In this document: positions 49,817-60,298 of the stretch, piece by piece | Numbering within the stretch: the stretch's first letter is position 1 | Layout: each line of letters begins with the position of its first letter | From: Verrucomicrobiia bacterium | GTDB lineage: Bacteria > Verrucomicrobiota > Verrucomicrobiia > Verrucomicrobiales > DEV007 | Reading direction: 5' to 3' | Length of the DNA stretch: 64,000 bases | Assembly: GCA_030427505.1 (NCBI GenBank) | Contig: JAUICH010000003.1 | Span: 186,001-250,000, forward strand | Translations under genes and position numbers: made by a program | The notes under the pieces: model-generated | Seen by the model: the letters and a program-made list of their open reading frames with translations, nothing else | The model's database searches: none | What the model was told of the DNA's origin: nothing

Positions 49817-49851
49817 CGTCTGAATTACTCTAACCAGAATCTTTGGCTGAT

Positions 49852-52767
49852 ATGATGACTAGAGGGATAAGAATCTGCGTACTGCTGTTTTCGCTCTCGT
49901 TGTGGCCGGCAACCGCTCTCAAGCTTACGGCAAATCCTTCGGGAGAAGCCGTAAGTGCTGGTACCGCTGAGTTCGACCGCTCGATGGACGGAGTTCTCTC
50001 CGTTACCGCCAGCGACCGCTCCATCATCTCCTGGCAGGACTTCTCGATTAACGCGGGTGAATTGACTCAATTCCTCCAGCCCGGCACGCAGGCGTCTGTC
50101 CTCAACCGGGTGACCGGCGGCATCCCATCCTCGCTCCAGGGCAGCCTCCAAGCCAATGGACGCGTCTTCCTCATCAACCCAAACGGCGTCTTCGTGGGGC
50201 CCGCGGGCCGGATCGGTACCGCCGGTTTTCTGGCTTCCACTCTGAACGTGAGCGACGCGGAGTTCCTCGCCGGAGGAGATCTGAACTTTTCCGGCGCCTC
50301 AACGGCCAAGGTGACCAATCTCGGCACCATCAACGCCGCCAGTGGAGACGTCTTTTTGATCGCCCGGCAAGTAGAGAACGCCGGCACCCTCTCCGCCCCG
50401 AACGGGACGGTGGGACTCGCCGCGGGGACGGAAGTGCTCCTCCGCCAGGCGGGCGAGGAACGGCTCTACGTGAAACCCGCTTCCGGTGGCGCCGCGGGCG
50501 GAACGGGGGTGGACAATTCCGGAACGGTCCGGGCCGCGACGGCTGAGCTTCAGGCGGCGGGCGGCAATGTCTATGCTCTGGCCATTCGCAACAGCGGCGT
50601 CGTCGAGGCCACGGCAGTCGCCAACCGGGGCGGACGGGTTTACCTGACCGCCACGGGCGGGAACGTGGAAAACACAGGCACGATCAGCGCCACCAATGGG
50701 ACTTCCGGAGGCTCCGTCACCGTCCGGGCGGGTAAGATCTTGCAGAGCGGAGAGATCCGCGCGGATGGGCAGCCGGTCGTAACCGGCGTGGAAGGTGACA
50801 CCGGCGAAACGGAGGAAGAAACCACCACCGATCCGGATGCAATGCCGGAAACAGACGGCACGGAGGACGCCGCGGTCGCTGAAAATGGCGGCCGGGTAGA
50901 ACTGCTAGGCTCAGAACGCGTGACCCTGGCGGCGGGTTCTGTCACTTCAGCCCAGGCGGGCGCATTCGGAACGGGCGGAGAAGTTTACGTTCGCTCCATG
51001 GACTATGAGACTTCCACCGTCTATTTCCTGGAAGACTCCAACATCTCCGCCGCTGGCGGCAGCGAAGGCGGGGACGGTGGTTTCGTGGACGTTTCGGCAC
51101 GGGGCGGCATCTGGTTTGAGGGGAATTTCGACCTCGGCGCCGAGGAGGGTTACCGGGGCGGCAGCCTGTTGATCGATCCCACCAATGGGGTGATTGAAAA
51201 TACCCCCGCCGGTGGCCGTTCGCTGGTAGGCACCGCGGACACGGACTGGGACCCCTCCAGTTCGACTACCGGCCTTCAGCAACTGGCCTTCGATGAGTTG
51301 GTGGGCACTCCGGGCGTTTCCCTGGATCCCCGGGCAGGCGGCAGTTTTTCCGGCGGCCGCTTTGGGAATGATTCCACGATCTCTCTTCAGTTCACGGGAG
51401 ACTTTTCCGTGAACGATCCGTTTGGAATCGACACCGCCACTGGCGCCACAGGAGTGAACCTCCTGGTCGAGGCGGCCAACATTTACATCAATGAGTATGT
51501 GACCGGAAGCGATGGAGGATTTCTTTCTTTTAATGCCTCTGACAAGATCGAGATCGACAATGATGTGTCGGCCCTGGGTACCTACACTCCCGGGACTGAC
51601 ATCCTGCCTCCGGTGAAGTTTCCGCCCAGCAGTTCCGGAGTGGATCCAGCTACTTGGGACCCTGCCTACCAGATTGAATTTCAGGCCCTGGGCGAAAATT
51701 CCGTCACCCCCGGCACATTTGACACCGGCGAGTTCGTCATCGCTGGCGAATCCGTGATCTCCACGGAAAGCGGAGGCATCCGGATCAATGCCCTGGAGAT
51801 CGATGTCTCCGGCGGAACTTTCATCGATTCCGGAGGCGAATTAGTCATTGGCGGCGAAGCGCCGGTGACGGGCTACGATCCTTTCCCCGGGACAGGCGAC
51901 CTGCGAACTGGAAATCTGAGCAACATCAGTATCGATAGTGCGACCATTTCTTCCAAAGGCAGCAGTCCCAACCTGCTACCCGCGCAATTCATGGATTCTC
52001 CCCCTGTCAACCTGGCCATCCTCGGGGGTACCGTGACCATTCAGTCCGCCGAAATTATCAACGAGTTGGCGGGTGGCGCGATCTACATCCGGTCCACGGT
52101 TGATCCCAACGAAAAGTCGCCGCCCACCAATACCCTCGTCTTCACCAGCAAGATAAACAGCCGCATGAGTGAAACCAATGTGAAGGCTGATGGCGACATC
52201 ATTTTCGACGTAGAAAGGAACGCGAGCTTTGAAATGAACGAGATGGATGAGTTGTCCATTACCTCCGCAAACGGTGACATCATCATCAATACCCAAAGCG
52301 AATACCGGCGCCCGGACATCGATCTAACGTTAGGGGAACTGATCATTTCCGGTGTGGTGAACATCGATGCCCCGAACGGGCGGCGCCTGTTCTATGTCCC
52401 GGCGCCCGGAGACGTTACCTATAACACCACCGCGGGACCGAGCGTACCACCAGACAGTCAATACGATACCTACTTTGGCGAAGCCCTCTTCTTCTCGGGG
52501 GACGGCATCGTTTACCGTACTCAGGCTCCCACCAGCAGCGGATCGGGCTCGGGAGGAAATGGCATGACGGCGCCACAGACCGTCTTTTTCGGTGGATCGG
52601 GAGGTCCCGACGAAGAAGAGGAAACCATGATGACCACTCCGTTCGTCTTTCCGAGATCCGGTGAAGTCGAGGAACAGGAGCAGGCTTCCGTCGATCAGGG
52701 GACGCAGGAAGGCGAAGAGGACGACGGCAATTCCCAAGAAAAAGTCGAGTATTCAGATCAGGAGTAG
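49852..52767 (+). CDS. TpsA-type exoprotein with filamentous hemagglutinin N-terminal domain
   Basis: A 971-residue exoprotein. A signal peptide (about residues 1-22) is followed by the TPS secretion domain (about 25-250), including VTGGIPSSLQGSLQANGRVF and NPNGVFVGPAGRI (about 109-121). Further beta-helix repeats follow. A second TPS-like stretch reads YRGGSLLIDPTNGVIEN. The C-terminal 60 residues are acidic (EEEE and EEDD runs) and seem to lack a membrane anchor. The ATG at 49852 was preferred; a TTG at 49843 would add three residues. Ligand and target are unknown. Confidence 0.85.
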   Translation: MMTRGIRICVLLFSLSLWPATALKLTANPSGEAVSAGTAEFDRSMDGVLSVTASDRSIISWQDFSINAGELTQFLQPGTQASVLNRVTGGIPSSLQGSLQANGRVFLINPNGVFVGPAGRIGTAGFLASTLNVSDAEFLAGGDLNFSGASTAKVTNLGTINAASGDVFLIARQVENAGTLSAPNGTVGLAAGTEVLLRQAGEERLYVKPASGGAAGGTGVDNSGTVRAATAELQAAGGNVYALAIRNSGVVEATAVANRGGRVYLTATGGNVENTGTISATNGTSGGSVTVRAGKILQSGEIRADGQPVVTGVEGDTGETEEETTTDPDAMPETDGTEDAAVAENGGRVELLGSERVTLAAGSVTSAQAGAFGTGGEVYVRSMDYETSTVYFLEDSNISAAGGSEGGDGGFVDVSARGGIWFEGNFDLGAEEGYRGGSLLIDPTNGVIENTPAGGRSLVGTADTDWDPSSSTTGLQQLAFDELVGTPGVSLDPRAGGSFSGGRFGNDSTISLQFTGDFSVNDPFGIDTATGATGVNLLVEAANIYINEYVTGSDGGFLSFNASDKIEIDNDVSALGTYTPGTDILPPVKFPPSSSGVDPATWDPAYQIEFQALGENSVTPGTFDTGEFVIAGESVISTESGGIRINALEIDVSGGTFIDSGGELVIGGEAPVTGYDPFPGTGDLRTGNLSNISIDSATISSKGSSPNLLPAQFMDSPPVNLAILGGTVTIQSAEIINELAGGAIYIRSTVDPNEKSPPTNTLVFTSKINSRMSETNVKADGDIIFDVERNASFEMNEMDELSITSANGDIIINTQSEYRRPDIDLTLGELIISGVVNIDAPNGRRLFYVPAPGDVTYNTTAGPSVPPDSQYDTYFGEALFFSGDGIVYRTQAPTSSGSGSGGNGMTAPQTVFFGGSGGPDEEEETMMTTPFVFPRSGEVEEQEQASVDQGTQEGEEDDGNSQEKVEYSDQE

Positions 52768-52862
52768 CTTGTAGAGCAACGCCGGATTCCTTCACTCCTG
52801 CTCACTTCTTGCCGGCAGTCCGCAAAGATCTTGCTCTCCCTCTTTTCGAGACCCTCTAAAGA

Positions 52863-53061
52863 TTAGGGTGTGTGGACAAATTGGCGGACTGCCCGGCGCG
52901 AGGCCATTTTTCGGCTGGCAAGGCGCGCCGAACGCCGTTGGGTGACCCCAATAGAGCGAGGCGGAACGCAGCCAGGCGTAAAATTCGCCGCTTGCGGCGC
53001 TGATTCTGACTTCCTTTTTCATCTATTCCGGGCGGTTCGGGAATTTGTCCATACACCCTAA
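52863..53061. mobile_element. MITE copy 2 (199 bp)
   Basis: Starts TTAGGGTGTGTGGACAAAT and ends ATTTGTCCATACACCCTAA, an inverted repeat with one mismatch. The interior is a near-perfect inverted copy of the element at 58622-58820. It directly abuts the IS5-type remnant at 53064. The MKKEVRISAASGEFYAW-type reading frame inside is repeat-encoded. Confidence 0.85.
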
Positions 53062-55256: not shown

Positions 55257-55694
55257 ATGAGACACCGGCGTAAGACTGTAAAACTACAACGCCCCGCCGA
55301 CCACCGGCGGGCCCTGCTGTCCAATCTGGCCAGCAGCCTCATCACGCACGGCCGCGTGCGCACCACTTTGGCCAAGGCCAAAGCCCTGCGCCCCGTGGCG
55401 GAACGCATGGTCACCCTCGGCAAGAAAGCCGACGCCACGGATGACGCGGCGAAGAAAGTGCACTACCGCCGCCAGGCGATTGCTTTCCTCGGCCAGAAAG
55501 ACGTGGTGAAGAAACTCTTCGAAGAAATCGCCCTCGCGTCCTCGGACCGTCCCGGCGGCTACACGCGCATCACCAAACTCGGCGCCCGCCAGAGCGACTC
55601 CGCTCCCATGGCTTACATCGAGTGGGTGGACGCCTACACCGGCCCCGGCGAAGAAGAGGACGAGGAAGAAACCGCCGTGGCGGAGAGCAAGTAA
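55257..55694 (+). CDS. rplQ: 50S ribosomal protein L17
   Basis: A 145-residue protein: MRHRRKTVKLQRPADHRRALLSNLASSLI at the start and GGYTRITKLGARQSDSAPMAYIEWV later are L17 signatures. The last 20 residues form an acidic tail. A ribosome site AAGGAG precedes the ATG. A strong terminator follows 45 bp later. Confidence 0.97.
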   Translation: MRHRRKTVKLQRPADHRRALLSNLASSLITHGRVRTTLAKAKALRPVAERMVTLGKKADATDDAAKKVHYRRQAIAFLGQKDVVKKLFEEIALASSDRPGGYTRITKLGARQSDSAPMAYIEWVDAYTGPGEEEDEEETAVAESK

Positions 55695-55738: not shown

Positions 55739-55771
55739 AAAAGCCGCGCTGGAATTTCCGGCGCGGCTTTT
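55739..55771 (+). terminator. Rho-independent terminator of rplQ
   Basis: AAAAGCCGCGC (55739-55749) pairs with GCGCGGCTTTT (55761-55771), an 11-bp stem ending in T-rich sequence. An 18-base piece of it (55747-55764) is exactly repeated at 56631-56648. Confidence 0.9.
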
Positions 55772-55800
55772 GTTGTTCCGGGGAAAAAGAATCGCCCGGA

Positions 55801-56490
55801 CTACCACCCCTTCCCCGGTTTTGGGAAGAGAGCTTTCAGCTCGTCATACGTCCTATCGGTGATGACTTCGCCATCCAATGGAATCTTGATTCCCGGACCG
55901 TCCTGGGAAGCGAAGCAAGCGGCCGTGTATTCCGGCTCGAAAGCGGGACCTTTCGGTTCGATCTCCACCACGTAGCCCTGTCTTTTGTGACGGTGGATCA
56001 CAAACTCCGTGGCTGGAAATAGACGGGGCTGATTCAAGTCATCGTCGGGAGGGCTCTCCTCGATGGCATCGTAATCATAGAGATACTGCCCTGACAGATA
56101 CAGCACGGAACCATCTTCCAACTCGATGTAGTAGTGCGTCCCCTCGTCATTGTATTCCTCGACCTCGAAGGCGCGCCTTGCCCGGAATTCATCTGAAACA
56201 ATCTGCCCCTTCCTGCGCAGAGATTCGAGGGTCAGGTCCTTGTACTTGGGACCCAAGATCCCAAATGGAGTCGACTCCCCACGGGCGAGTACCACGGTAG
56301 CCACTTCGGCTCCAACTACCAAGGCCACTATTCCGATGGGAACCAACAGCCATGGTAGGTGCCATTTCTCTGGAAGGATCTCCGCGACTCCATAGACCGT
56401 CACCCACACCAAGGTGATGACAAACAACGAGCCCACTATCAGCTTCAGAGCGCAGCCCAATGGGCCGAATGGTTTCTGGGTGGCAGGCAT
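55801..56490 (-). CDS. Unknown two-helix membrane protein (islet gene A)
   Basis: A 229-residue protein with two N-terminal helices (about residues 13-38 and 46-70) and a soluble C-terminal domain. No motif was recognised. It lies between the rplQ terminator and the oldest mnmE 3' fragment and appears lower in G+C than its neighbours by eye, consistent with acquired cargo. Confidence 0.6.
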   Translation of the reverse strand: MPATQKPFGPLGCALKLIVGSLFVITLVWVTVYGVAEILPEKWHLPWLLVPIGIVALVVGAEVATVVLARGESTPFGILGPKYKDLTLESLRRKGQIVSDEFRARRAFEVEEYNDEGTHYYIELEDGSVLYLSGQYLYDYDAIEESPPDDDLNQPRLFPATEFVIHRHKRQGYVVEIEPKGPAFEPEYTAACFASQDGPGIKIPLDGEVITDRTYDELKALFPKPGKGW

Positions 56491-56532
56491 GACAAGTCTC
56501 GGCTCTCCGCCGAAATCTATCCGAAACGCTCT

Positions 56533-56627
56533 CTACTACCCAATGCAGAAAGTAGAAAAGATCTCTCCGGAAACTTCTTCCTCGTCCGCTTTATCCACCA
56601 CCTCGCCCACGGTGTCGAGGGTGGAAG
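56533..56627 (-). pseudogene. mnmE 3'-end fragment, copy 1 (about 95 bp)
   Basis: On the minus strand this reads LDTVGEVVDKADEEEVSGE then IFSTFCIG and a stop, against LDAVGEVVGKADVEEILGE and IFSTFCIGK in the intact gene. The terminal core is CTACTACCCAATGCAGAA on the plus strand, two mismatches from the intact end. Beyond 56627 the sequence changes abruptly to a copy of the rplQ terminator. Confidence 0.85.
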
Positions 56628-56630
56628 TCA

Positions 56631-56654
56631 CGCTGGAATTTCCGGCGCAGCTTT
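56631..56654. repeat. Duplicated piece of the rplQ terminator
   Basis: CGCTGGAATTTCCGGCGC is identical to 55747-55764, and after one changed base GCTTT also matches. The pieces are 884 bp apart in the same orientation. It lies immediately after mnmE fragment 1 and marks a duplication junction. Confidence 0.75.
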
Positions 56655-56714
56655 CTGATATAGTCCGGAGGTTGTTCGAATCACCCCATTTTCGACCTGA
56701 GGAGTAATAAAGCC

Positions 56715-57794
56715 CTACTCAGTGCCTTCGGCAGGTTTGGGCTTGCGCCCCTCGCCACGACCAGAGGGTGGTTTGTCGATTGCATCGTGCTCCAGCTTTC
56801 TGAACTCGGAAAGAAAGCCACGGGCACCATCTGAAAGTTTGGCGAAATCCGCGTCACTGATCTTTGCCACCGCTTCTATAAGCGCCTCTCCGGAGCCGTT
56901 CACCACGATGGCTCTTCTGATCTCAGGAGAAATCTCCAGAATCTCGTTCTTAACGGTCCCGGCCAACTTGTCAAAGCGATCGCGAAGGCCCTCGACCTCT
57001 TCATCCAGAACCTGCTCTTTCGTGTGAAAGATGGTGTGAAACACTTCCTGAAGTTTCAAGATCGCCTCCCGGCTGAACATGCCCACCAGGGCCCCGGCGG
57101 CCGCCAGTCCCCAGCGGTTGATTCCTCCGCCACCACCATCAGCCGAACCATCGTCGGCACCCGTGATGAAGACCAATCCACCTGCGAGCACGAAATAAAA
57201 CACCAACCCTAACAAAAGTCCCATTAAGGGACGGGCCAGGTAGTAAGGGACATAAGCGGTGTCGAAGTCCCGCTTGGTGCTGGCATGCATGAGGTAGGCG
57301 TTGATAGTTGAAATACACGCGCCCACCGCGCCCGCAAACATCGTCGTAAGGGCATTGTTCACATCCGAAGCGGGCGTTCCGCCTGGCTTTGCCGCAAACC
57401 AGGAGGGTGGGTTCAGCACGGCAAAGAAACCAGCCAACGAAAGACCCGTGCAAACAGCCAGCCAAAGCGCCACCACCTTCGTTGCCCCGTGGGGAAACTG
57501 ATGACTAAAGTGGCTTTCGGGCTCTGGAGGAATAACTTCTCCTCCCCCCAACTGAAAGAGGCTGCCCGGTCGAAAAACGGTAATTTTGATGAGCCATAGC
57601 CCCAAGAGCAGCAAGACCAGAGCGCTCAGCTTCCAACTATATGCAAAGGGGAATTTCCAACCTCTGGCTTCTGAAAGCGTGATGTTCCCAATCTTGAAAA
57701 TCGATTCCAGTCCACACAAAAAAATGGTGGCCAGCAGTACCCAGAAAAAGGACGATCTGACACATCTCTCCAGTCTCGTTGCCTGTTCGCTCAT
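56715..57794 (-). CDS. Unknown polytopic membrane protein (islet gene B)
   Basis: A 359-residue protein with about five helices (about residues 15-32, 52-70, 105-127, 140-160 and 183-207, with a weaker one near 225-243) and a cytoplasmic tail of about 110 residues. The tail has DEEVEGLRDRFDKLAGTV and ends Pro/Lys-rich. No family was recognised. A ribosome site AAGGGA precedes the ATG at 57794. It lies between two mnmE fragments. Confidence 0.65.
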   Translation of the reverse strand: MSEQATRLERCVRSSFFWVLLATIFLCGLESIFKIGNITLSEARGWKFPFAYSWKLSALVLLLLGLWLIKITVFRPGSLFQLGGGEVIPPEPESHFSHQFPHGATKVVALWLAVCTGLSLAGFFAVLNPPSWFAAKPGGTPASDVNNALTTMFAGAVGACISTINAYLMHASTKRDFDTAYVPYYLARPLMGLLLGLVFYFVLAGGLVFITGADDGSADGGGGGINRWGLAAAGALVGMFSREAILKLQEVFHTIFHTKEQVLDEEVEGLRDRFDKLAGTVKNEILEISPEIRRAIVVNGSGEALIEAVAKISDADFAKLSDGARGFLSEFRKLEHDAIDKPPSGRGEGRKPKPAEGTE

Positions 57795-57882
57795 TTGGTT
57801 TTCCCTTTAAACTGTCCGAATCTATTTCTTTTTTGACTGAGATTCGCCCGGTTTCCAATCTTTTTCTTGCTTATCTACTATA

Positions 57883-57915
57883 AGCAGAAAGCCGCGCACA
57901 TGCGCGGTTCATTTC
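57883..57915 (-). terminator. Possible terminator beyond mnmE fragment 2
   Basis: CCGCGC and GCGCGG around ACAT form a 6-bp stem at about 57891-57906, next to the stop codon position of mnmE fragment 2. No strong T-run was seen on the minus strand. Confidence 0.35.
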
Positions 57916-57916
57916 T

Positions 57917-58171
57917 CTACTTCCCAATACAGAAAGTAGCGAAAATCTCTCCAAGAATCTCTTTCACATACGCTTTCCCCACGACTTCGCCGGCGGTGTC
58001 GAGGCCGGAGCGAAGTATTATCGCCACGATCTCTGGTGACTCCTGGCGGCGAATTTGAGCCTCTGCCATTGTTAGATATTTTTCGACCCCACCAGGCAGT
58101 TTTTGTGGCCGGCGTTCACGGCAATCATTTCGGAATTCCAGGCCGCATTGCGGCTAATGGAGCCCGGTCAC
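57917..58171 (-). pseudogene. mnmE 3'-end fragment, copy 2 (about 255 bp)
   Basis: On the minus strand, after one frameshift, this reads AAWNSEMIAVNAGHKNCLV and then EAQIRRQESPEIVAIILRS, ending IFATFCIGK and a stop; it matches the C-terminal 85 or so residues of the intact MnmE. Its terminal core CTACTTCCCAATACAGAA (57917-57934) is identical to the intact gene's end. It is longer and less decayed than copy 1. Confidence 0.88.
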
Positions 58172-58223
58172 GATTTGAAGAGATAGCGCTGAATACAGCG
58201 TGTTAGGTACGCGTCTCAATTGA

Positions 58224-58613
58224 ATGCAAATCTCAAAAGGAAAACCGCTTACCCTTGCAGGCTGCGCTTTCGGCATTATCGCTCTCTGGTCTCCCTTTTT
58301 CACCGGATGGTCCCAAGAGAAGGTAGAGATCACGAATAATCGATACGACCCTGTTCCGGTTACGCTTCAAGTTCCCAGTGGAGGCTCCCAGTTTCTGGCA
58401 ACCCATGGAGACACACTTCTCGTCGAGGAAAAAGCTGACTACGGTCCGTTGAAGGAGAGATCTCGCTATGAAACGATCTCCTTTGCGGGTGGAATTGCTT
58501 CAGGCGTAACCATCCTCGAACTGAAAGGACACTGGGCAAAACTGAGTCATCACGACGGCGGCTCCAAGGGACCGTTGTGGGTCAATATCAGCCAAATTTA
58601 TTGGGTGAAATGA
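58224..58613 (+). CDS. Unknown exported protein (islet gene C)
   Basis: A 129-residue protein with a signal peptide (about residues 1-30, GWSQ) and a small secreted domain with VEITNNRYDPVPVTLQV and LKGHWAKLSHHDGG. No family was recognised; an SH3-like fold is possible. It lies between mnmE fragment 2 and MITE copy 3. Low G+C by eye suggests acquisition. Confidence 0.6.
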   Translation: MQISKGKPLTLAGCAFGIIALWSPFFTGWSQEKVEITNNRYDPVPVTLQVPSGGSQFLATHGDTLLVEEKADYGPLKERSRYETISFAGGIASGVTILELKGHWAKLSHHDGGSKGPLWVNISQIYWVK

Positions 58614-58621
58614 TGACTCAT

Positions 58622-58820
58622 TTAGGGCGTATGGACAGATTCCCGAACCGCCCGGAATAGATGAAAAAGGAAGTCAGAATCAGCGCCGCAAGCGGCGAAT
58701 TTTACGCCTGGCTGCGTTCCGCCTCACTCTATTGGGGTCACCCAACGGCGTTCGGCGCGCCTTGCCAGCCGAAAAATGGCCTCGCGCCGGGCAGTCCGCC
58801 AATTTGTCCACACACCCTAA
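58622..58820. mobile_element. MITE copy 3 (199 bp)
   Basis: Starts TTAGGGCGTATGGACAGAT and ends ATTTGTCCACACACCCTAA. It is the inverted version of the copy at 52863-53061 with very few differences, so both moved recently. It sits 8 bp past the stop of islet gene C and 56 bp before mnmE. Its internal MKKEVRIS-type frame is repeat-encoded. Confidence 0.85.
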
Positions 58821-58876
58821 TGATTCGCTTCGGCGGCACACATCCGAGCTATCTGGGCCGCCGGTGATTCTTCCCT

Positions 58877-60298
58877 CTACTTCCCAATACAGAAAGTGGA
58901 GAAAATCTCTCCGAGAATCTCTTCCACGTCTGCCTTCCCCACAACTTCGCCCACGGCGTCGAGGGCGGAGCGGAGTTCGATGGCCACGATTTCTGGCGGA
59001 TCCTGGTGGCGAATCTGGGCCTCCGCCGCGGTCAGAAATTCTTCGGCGCGCACCAGGCAATTTTTGTGGCGGGCATTCACGGCGATCATTTCGGAACTCC
59101 AGGCAGCGCCACCGCTGCTAAGTTCGGCTACGATCCGGTCGCAGAGCGCGCTTTGGCCTTCCAGTGTCTTGCAGGAAAACGGGACCTCCAGGACTTCGGC
59201 ATAGCCGGCTTCTGATTCACTGTTTCCGCTCCCGTTGCGCCAATCCGGATGGACACCGAGGTCCAGCTTATTGAGCACCCGAATGTGGTGGGCTCCCGAT
59301 GGGACGGAGACAGGTTGCAGCCCCTGAGCTTCGCGCCCCAGGCTGGCGTCCACGACTTCCAAAATGAGTTCCGCCGTTTCGATCTGGCGGCGGGCCCGAT
59401 CAATCCCTTCGCGTTCGATGGCGTCTTCAGACTCCCGCACCCCCGCCGTATCCACCAGCCGGAGCGGAATACCGCGCAGGTTGATCACTTCCTCGATGGT
59501 GTCCCGCGTGGTTCCCGCGGTCTCGCTGACGATGGCGCGTTCGAATCCTAACAAAACATTCAAAAGACTCGATTTCCCAACATTCGGAGCACCGCAGATA
59601 ACGGTGCGAACCCCTTCCCGGAGAATGCGCCCTTGGTCGGCTGTATCCACCAGATCCTGGATACTCGCCGTCACCACGTGAATCCGTTCCGCCAAATGCT
59701 GCCCGGTTTCCGGATCGATGTCTTCTTCTGGGAAGTCGATGTAGGCCTCCAGATGCGCGACGATGGAGATCAGGTCTTCGCGAATGCCCATGAGCCGTTC
59801 GCCCAGGCGACCGGCCAGTTGCTCGTTGGCGGCTCGCAAGGCCAGCTCCGTCTGCGCGGAGATCAGGTCCATCACCGCCTCCGCTTGGGTCAGGTCCATT
59901 TTTCCGTTCAGAAAGGCTCGCTGGCTGAACTCCCCCGGCTCCGCCGAGCGCGCCCCACAGGCCAACAACCGTTCCAGGACCAGCCGCGTCACCAGCACCC
60001 CGCCATGGCCGCTGATCTCCACCAAATCCTCCCCCGTGTAACTATGCGGATCAGGGAAAAAGGTGCACAGAATCTCATCAATCACTCCGCCATCGGCGGC
60101 CACGATGGAACCGAAGGTAGCGCGGCGCGGCGTGAGCTTCGCTATTGAAACCTTCGCCTCTCCCCCACCCTGACGTTTCACGCGAAAGGCCTGACTCACC
60201 ACCTCAGCCGCCTGGGGGCCGGAGACCCGGATCAAGGAAATCGCCCCCTGCCCAAAGGGCGTGGCAATCGCGGCGATGGTGTCGGGGGGAGCGGTCAT
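58877..60298 (-). CDS. mnmE: tRNA modification GTPase MnmE
   Basis: A 473-residue GTPase that, with MnmG, modifies the wobble uridine of tRNAs. The tetrahydrofolate-binding N-terminus is MTAPPDTIAAIATPFGQGA. The G domain has G1 GAPNVGKSSL, G2 TAGTTRDTIEE, G3 DTAG and G4 NKLD; the catalytic Cys is at the C-terminus in FCIGK. The ATG at 60298 was chosen because the longer frame adds no family sequence. Its last bases, TTCTGTATTGGGAAGTAG, match the SGI1 attachment core in 17 of 18 positions (core recalled from memory). Confidence 0.96.
   Translation of the reverse strand: MTAPPDTIAAIATPFGQGAISLIRVSGPQAAEVVSQAFRVKRQGGGEAKVSIAKLTPRRATFGSIVAADGGVIDEILCTFFPDPHSYTGEDLVEISGHGGVLVTRLVLERLLACGARSAEPGEFSQRAFLNGKMDLTQAEAVMDLISAQTELALRAANEQLAGRLGERLMGIREDLISIVAHLEAYIDFPEEDIDPETGQHLAERIHVVTASIQDLVDTADQGRILREGVRTVICGAPNVGKSSLLNVLLGFERAIVSETAGTTRDTIEEVINLRGIPLRLVDTAGVRESEDAIEREGIDRARRQIETAELILEVVDASLGREAQGLQPVSVPSGAHHIRVLNKLDLGVHPDWRNGSGNSESEAGYAEVLEVPFSCKTLEGQSALCDRIVAELSSGGAAWSSEMIAVNARHKNCLVRAEEFLTAAEAQIRHQDPPEIVAIELRSALDAVGEVVGKADVEEILGEIFSTFCIGK

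Follow-up and report, generated by a model that had tools for sequence, protein, structure and literature searches.

Displaced mnmE 3' ends in a Verrucomicrobiales genome as probable scars of one-sided homologous recombination

Why should the end of a single housekeeping gene occur three times in a row, with unrelated genes in between? The question is raised by the mnmE locus in a 64,000-nucleotide stretch of DNA (the window) from a bacterium of the order Verrucomicrobiales. A sequence-only reading of the window had suggested that small islets integrated there serially, each replacing the 3' end of mnmE and pushing the old end away. We compared the locus with related genomes, resolved its junctions where possible, and scanned for the same structure at other genes.

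Three mnmE ends and the genes between them

A repeat search of the window returned one family of 95-nt direct repeats, starting at 56531, 57915, and 58875 (spacings of 1384 and 960 bp). This confirms the three tandem mnmE 3' ends, in the same orientation, that the sequence-only reading had described. The features of the locus are the following.

55257-55694, plus strand: rplQ (ribosomal protein L17), the convergent neighbor
55741-55782, plus strand: T1, the original terminator copy after rplQ, from a direct and inverted repeat search
55801-56490, minus strand: cargo ORF of 229 aa, no known family, partial homologues in two other genomes
56531-56625, minus strand: fragment 1, a displaced mnmE 3' end (93-nt gap-free alignment, 81%), last Lys codon now TAG
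56625-56668, no strand assigned: T2, a copy of the rplQ terminator region directly against the inner end of fragment 1, a putative recombination junction
56715-57794, minus strand: cargo ORF (359 aa) with hydrophobic segments and no known family; homologues in G139 (42%) and, weaker, in G154 and G018
57915-58195, minus strand: fragment 2, a displaced mnmE 3' end (82% over 57915-58146, weaker to about 58190), one frameshift
58224-58613, plus strand: cargo ORF of 129 aa with a signal-peptide-like start, no known family
58622-58822, no strand assigned: MITE with inverted ends TTAGGGYGTRTGGACANATT, second copy near 52856-53050
58877-60298, minus strand: intact mnmE (trmE, tRNA modification GTPase), stop codon at 58877-58879, identified by its translation and by orthologues in relatives

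The order is mnmE - (MITE, 129-aa gene) - fragment 2 - (359-aa gene) - T2|fragment 1 - (229-aa gene) - T1 - rplQ. Both fragments thus lie between rplQ and mnmE, in the orientation of the intact end, and the mnmE reading frame is complete through FCIGK-stop, leaving the gene intact. Fragment 2 matches mnmE across 233 nt at 82% identity, with a weak match onward to about 58190 (E = 2.4e-60 at the DNA level in the genome search), and fragment 1 matches across 93 nt at 81%, without gaps. In both, the match extends two or three bases past the stop codon and then breaks off. The inner limits differ, giving repeat lengths of 93 nt and of 233 to about 270 nt. Fragment 2 is longer yet frameshifted, and in fragment 1 the last lysine codon has changed from AAG to TAG. 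A profile of the last 45 mnmE residues gave 9e-19 and 9.5e-11 for the displaced ends in the 6.4-Mb genome, in which the mnmE end matches well above chance at exactly three places (the intact end and the two fragments). The fragments had been described as increasingly decayed away from mnmE; this holds for their length (from 233 to 93 nt) but not for nucleotide identity, which is about equal (82 and 81%).

The 129-, 359-, and 229-aa ORFs have no accepted Pfam, NCBIfam, or PADLOC family, in agreement with the earlier description of genes without a recognized family. The two larger ones (359 and 229 aa) are rare accessory genes with few homologues within the family. Comparison with relatives, named earlier as a check on serial insertion, shows rplQ and rpoA directly behind mnmE and convergent with it in G008, G145, and G192, across a gap of roughly 180 to 470 bp. 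The cargo of the window was therefore gained within the mnmE-rplQ gap.

The MITE noticed earlier is borne out by its inverted ends and its many genomic copies: Exact matches to its terminal 21-mer number 14 in the genome and near matches (up to 2 mismatches) about 33, and a variant end (GTGTGGACAAATTGGAGAACG) occurs at roughly 30 further places. A three-copy repeat elsewhere in contig C43 was rejected as a set of gene ends, its members being MITE copies. Upstream of the rpoA-rplQ region, a 974-aa ORF (window 49843-52767) resembles a filamentous haemagglutinin-type secreted protein, a name given by eye from its sequence.

The mnmE end as a possible attachment site

Islands related to SGI1 attach at the 3' end of trmE through 18-bp att sites and encode an integrase, and in Gammaproteobacteria unrelated islands are known to target mnmE (PMC9035990). 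Small integrative islets could have used the mnmE end in the same manner, with a replacement end arriving in each islet and an integrase acting in trans. The targeting of mnmE by those islands speaks for such islets, as do the abrupt stop of all homology at the stop codon and the likeness of the last 18 bases to the SGI1 core. An intact mnmE fits such integration and the displacement model described below alike. Tandem arrays of elements occur at this gene end among SGI1-related islands, comparable with the tandem tails here, and the tails are not confined to the window. An mnmE C-terminus was present in 273 genomes of the order, and in four of these (G000, which is this genome, G030, G124, and G157) displaced mnmE ends lie downstream on the same contig.

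The resemblance to a core site, however, has a simpler source. The 18 bases are TTC TGT ATT GGG AAG TAG, the codons for Phe-Cys-Ile-Gly-Lys-stop, and this FCIGK-stop terminus is common to nearly all relatives. The likeness to the SGI1 core therefore follows from protein conservation, and the proposal that the 18-mer is an SGI1-type attachment core falls with it. A gene-end repeat that resembles a known attachment core can be nothing other than conserved codons, a caution that extends beyond this locus. The repeats moreover differ in their inner ends and are 93 to about 270 bp long, against a core of 18 bp, and none of the 18-bp att sites, integrase, or many further island genes of SGI1-related islands is present in the window.

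The absence of an integrase noted before was upheld by a motif scan, which found none in the window and none downstream of mnmE in about 138 other loci. Integrases beside mnmE in other genomes, which the sequence-only reading had pointed to as a check, were likewise not found: A tyrosine recombinase lay downstream of mnmE in 0 of the 139 loci scanned (1.83 Mb), using a strict motif with a sensitivity of 7 of 10 for the known integrases of G030. The only credible motif in these loci belonged to a XerC/D-like ORF upstream of mnmE on a Bacteroidales contig. Two further observations, described below, count against the islets as well, namely that the tip of the neighboring gene lies inside the joints and that unrelated genes carry the same structure. 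We consider integrative islets very unlikely, and SGI1-style site-specific integration is not supported as an explanation of the window. What stands of the serial scheme is that successive acquisitions displaced the old ends and left the gene intact; what does not stand is site-specific integration, given the unequal repeats, the lack of an integrase, and the involvement of other genes.

Junctions and divergence of the displaced ends

The joint at fragment 1 is informative, and it is absent from the earlier reading. The rplQ terminator recurs directly against the inner end of fragment 1 (56625-56654, 27 of 30 positions identical), and the 17-nt core of this terminator occurs at only two places in 6.4 Mb, T1 and T2. 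An equivalent joint exists in G124, where the order is mnmE - esterase gene - [gyrB tip | 124 bp mnmE tail] - 396-aa ORF - gyrB-like gene. In its close relatives G102 and G152, the order is mnmE - another ORF - esterase - gyrB. The G124 stretch from the esterase to the fragment equals the esterase-gyrB spacer of G102 and G152 up to the gyrB tip, where the mnmE tail begins, and the joint falls on a GCCGCC microhomology common to both partners. Both joints thus consist of the tip of a convergent neighbor followed by an mnmE tail, as expected from the out-of-register joining of two alleles with different cargo.

Such a joint was resolved in only two of eight cases; the tip of the far-end neighbor was sought beside fragment 2 and beside the copies in G030, in G157, at the sulfatase gene (below), in G006, and in G087, and none was found there. 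The inner end of fragment 2 shows nothing recognizable. A 41-bp repeat beside the G030 fragment was considered as a neighbor tip and rejected as a dispersed sequence (five exact copies of its core). Across the fragments, the inner end varies from about 67 to 270 bp from the stop, and the outer end is always the stop codon.

We find it likely that at least two rounds of one-sided homologous recombination left stacked scars at the locus, by a process known as homology-facilitated illegitimate recombination or sequential displacement. The serial displacement of ends is supported because fragment 1 abuts a copy of the rplQ terminator, forming a neighbor-tip|mnmE-tip joint. At the outset, mnmE and rplQ would have been close convergent neighbors, and different strains would have gained different accessory genes in the gap between them. 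DNA with the structure [mnmE 3' end - other cargo - (rplQ terminator)] would then have entered the cell from a relative. At one end, a homologous crossover would have occurred inside mnmE; the far end would not have paired with its counterpart beside rplQ and would have been joined illegitimately inside the resident mnmE tail. The outcome would be an intact mnmE with the incoming tail, then the incoming cargo, then the cut resident tail as a downstream fragment, and two such events would yield the order now seen. We infer both this direction of transfer and this succession of events. The old 3' end does lie downstream in the same orientation with new DNA between, and a far-end joint by illegitimate or microhomologous joining, variable in position, is visible in the unequal inner ends, in the GCCGCC of G124, and in T2|fragment 1. 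Transformation may have been the route of entry. The genome encodes comEC and dprA (ComEC and DprA families), which is compatible with transformation and lends it weak support; E. coli in the control set has both genes too.

The process has precedents. Sequential displacement of type VI secretion effector genes has been described in Vibrio cholerae, for which homology-facilitated illegitimate recombination was proposed (Kirchberger et al. 2017, PMC5361080), and the same process was proposed for orphan Rhs 3' ends (PMC5361080). There, as here, a conserved part of a gene anchors the incoming DNA and the far end is joined illegitimately, which moves the old 3' end and the genes downstream of it further away, and repetition builds an array. 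The anchor in V. cholerae, however, is an effector gene, immunity genes are retained, and selection is obvious, whereas in the window a housekeeping gene serves as anchor, for cargo of no known function. In the laboratory, homology-facilitated illegitimate recombination has been observed in transformation of Acinetobacter, Streptococcus, and Pseudomonas (cited in PMC6382021) and in E. coli conjugation (PMC3240628). Those cases also combine a homologous crossover at one end with a short-homology joint at the other and insert foreign DNA. They are experimental events, whereas ours are deduced from old genomic scars.

The same joint could have arisen within one genome, if the stretch running from the mnmE tail through the rplQ terminator was doubled in tandem and cargo was later gained or lost in the copies. 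Tandem duplication predicts the T2|fragment 1 joint exactly. It also suits G124 and G157, where synonymous divergence is absent and decay alone separates the fragment from the intact end (2, 5, 2 and 3, 3, 4 differences at the three codon positions, respectively). The two intervals of the window, however, share only their tips and hold unrelated cargo, and those of G124 contain different genes, one of which is the normal neighbor in relatives.

Divergence between intact and displaced ends bears on the same choice. In G030, the differences at codon positions 1, 2, and 3 number 3, 2, and 19, a third-position excess over a null of fragment decay plus synonymous drift of the gene (third-position share assumed to be 0.46; p = 0.001), and the only clear case. 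Because the G030 copies differ mostly at synonymous sites, both tails must have evolved as coding DNA in different lineages before they met, which speaks against duplication in one genome. Synonymous divergence is suggested in G048 (4, 2, and 12). For the two window fragments (9, 8, 23 and 5, 3, 10; p = 0.10 and 0.28 against the same null), the third-position excess is suggestive and also compatible with copies that were identical when displaced. On balance, we regard tandem duplication as unlikely.

For one-sided recombination, the source of the DNA can be narrowed somewhat. The three window tails are closer to one another than to any relative compared, and any donor was therefore probably a congener; for the same reason, polarizing donor and recipient by similarity to relatives had no power and was abandoned. 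No allele that could have served as donor, with this cargo next to mnmE, came to light in the genomes searched, none of which was of the same genus.

Elsewhere in the survey, G048 and G162 each have one displaced mnmE end that lies elsewhere than downstream on the same contig, and 79 further mnmE loci (Verrucomicrobiota and other phyla) yielded no convincing displaced ends. A second mnmE tail in G156 was rejected as an assembly effect of two overlapping contig ends. In G169, a second C-terminus resembling that of mnmE (C13, L079, 6833-6946) lies on a different contig, within a 435-aa open frame, and is a paralogue or contamination.

Displaced ends at other genes

The scan for displaced ends of other genes covered 880 kb of the 6.4-Mb genome and 551 ORFs in the neighborhoods of relatives. 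In this genome, the only other gene found in the 880 kb encodes a sulfatase; its last 103 bp are repeated 1.4 kb further downstream, with a 250-aa ORF in between (contig C51, 142754-146012; locus L123, 2754-6012); the intervening ORF is coiled-coil-like. Most of the copied stretch is nearly identical, and the homology breaks inside the stop codon (TAG versus TGA). Among the relatives, a 338-aa gene of G006 (L043, 4993-6009, minus strand) has an 87-bp displaced 3' end (90%) 3.7 kb downstream, and a 411-aa gene of G087 (L241/L093) has one of 130 bp (90%) 1.17 kb downstream that ends at the stop codon. The G006 copy, near 1206-1277 of L043, shows several differences at synonymous sites. Displaced 3' ends are not specific to mnmE.

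This generality would also fit an unrecognized mobile element or recombinase that places small cargo at gene 3' ends and copies the end. In favor of such an element, several unrelated genes have displaced ends of about 90-270 bp that are set apart by unrelated ORFs; the predominance of 3' over 5' ends at high identity and the break within the sulfatase stop codon, in a copy nearly identical over most of its length, also agree with it. Yet the tested cargo ORFs have no common family, the lengths vary, microhomology accounts for the G124 joint, and 5' displacement would be selected against because the gene loses its promoter. We judge such an element highly improbable. Equally improbable, in our estimate, is a dedicated, so far unrecognized insertion process in Verrucomicrobiales that would target gene 3' ends precisely, set small accessory genes there, and restore the end with every insertion; if real, it would amount to cassette-like arrays without an integron.

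The process is more likely of a known kind, and it is unusually legible here, at a housekeeping gene. The displaced 3' ends of such genes preserve a legible record of one-sided recombination and illustrate a way in which single accessory genes may be gained by bacterial genomes with no mobile element involved. A simple test, comparing the last 45 residues of each gene with its surroundings, allows such ends to be counted across genomes. Among them, mnmE may be somewhat over-represented, a difference that we do not regard as established because mnmE ends are unusually conserved, so that old fragments of them are more readily recognized, and the present case was chosen for having them: Tandem copies were found at about 0.2% of other genes (about 3 in 1250), compared with 1.5% of mnmE genes (4 of 273).
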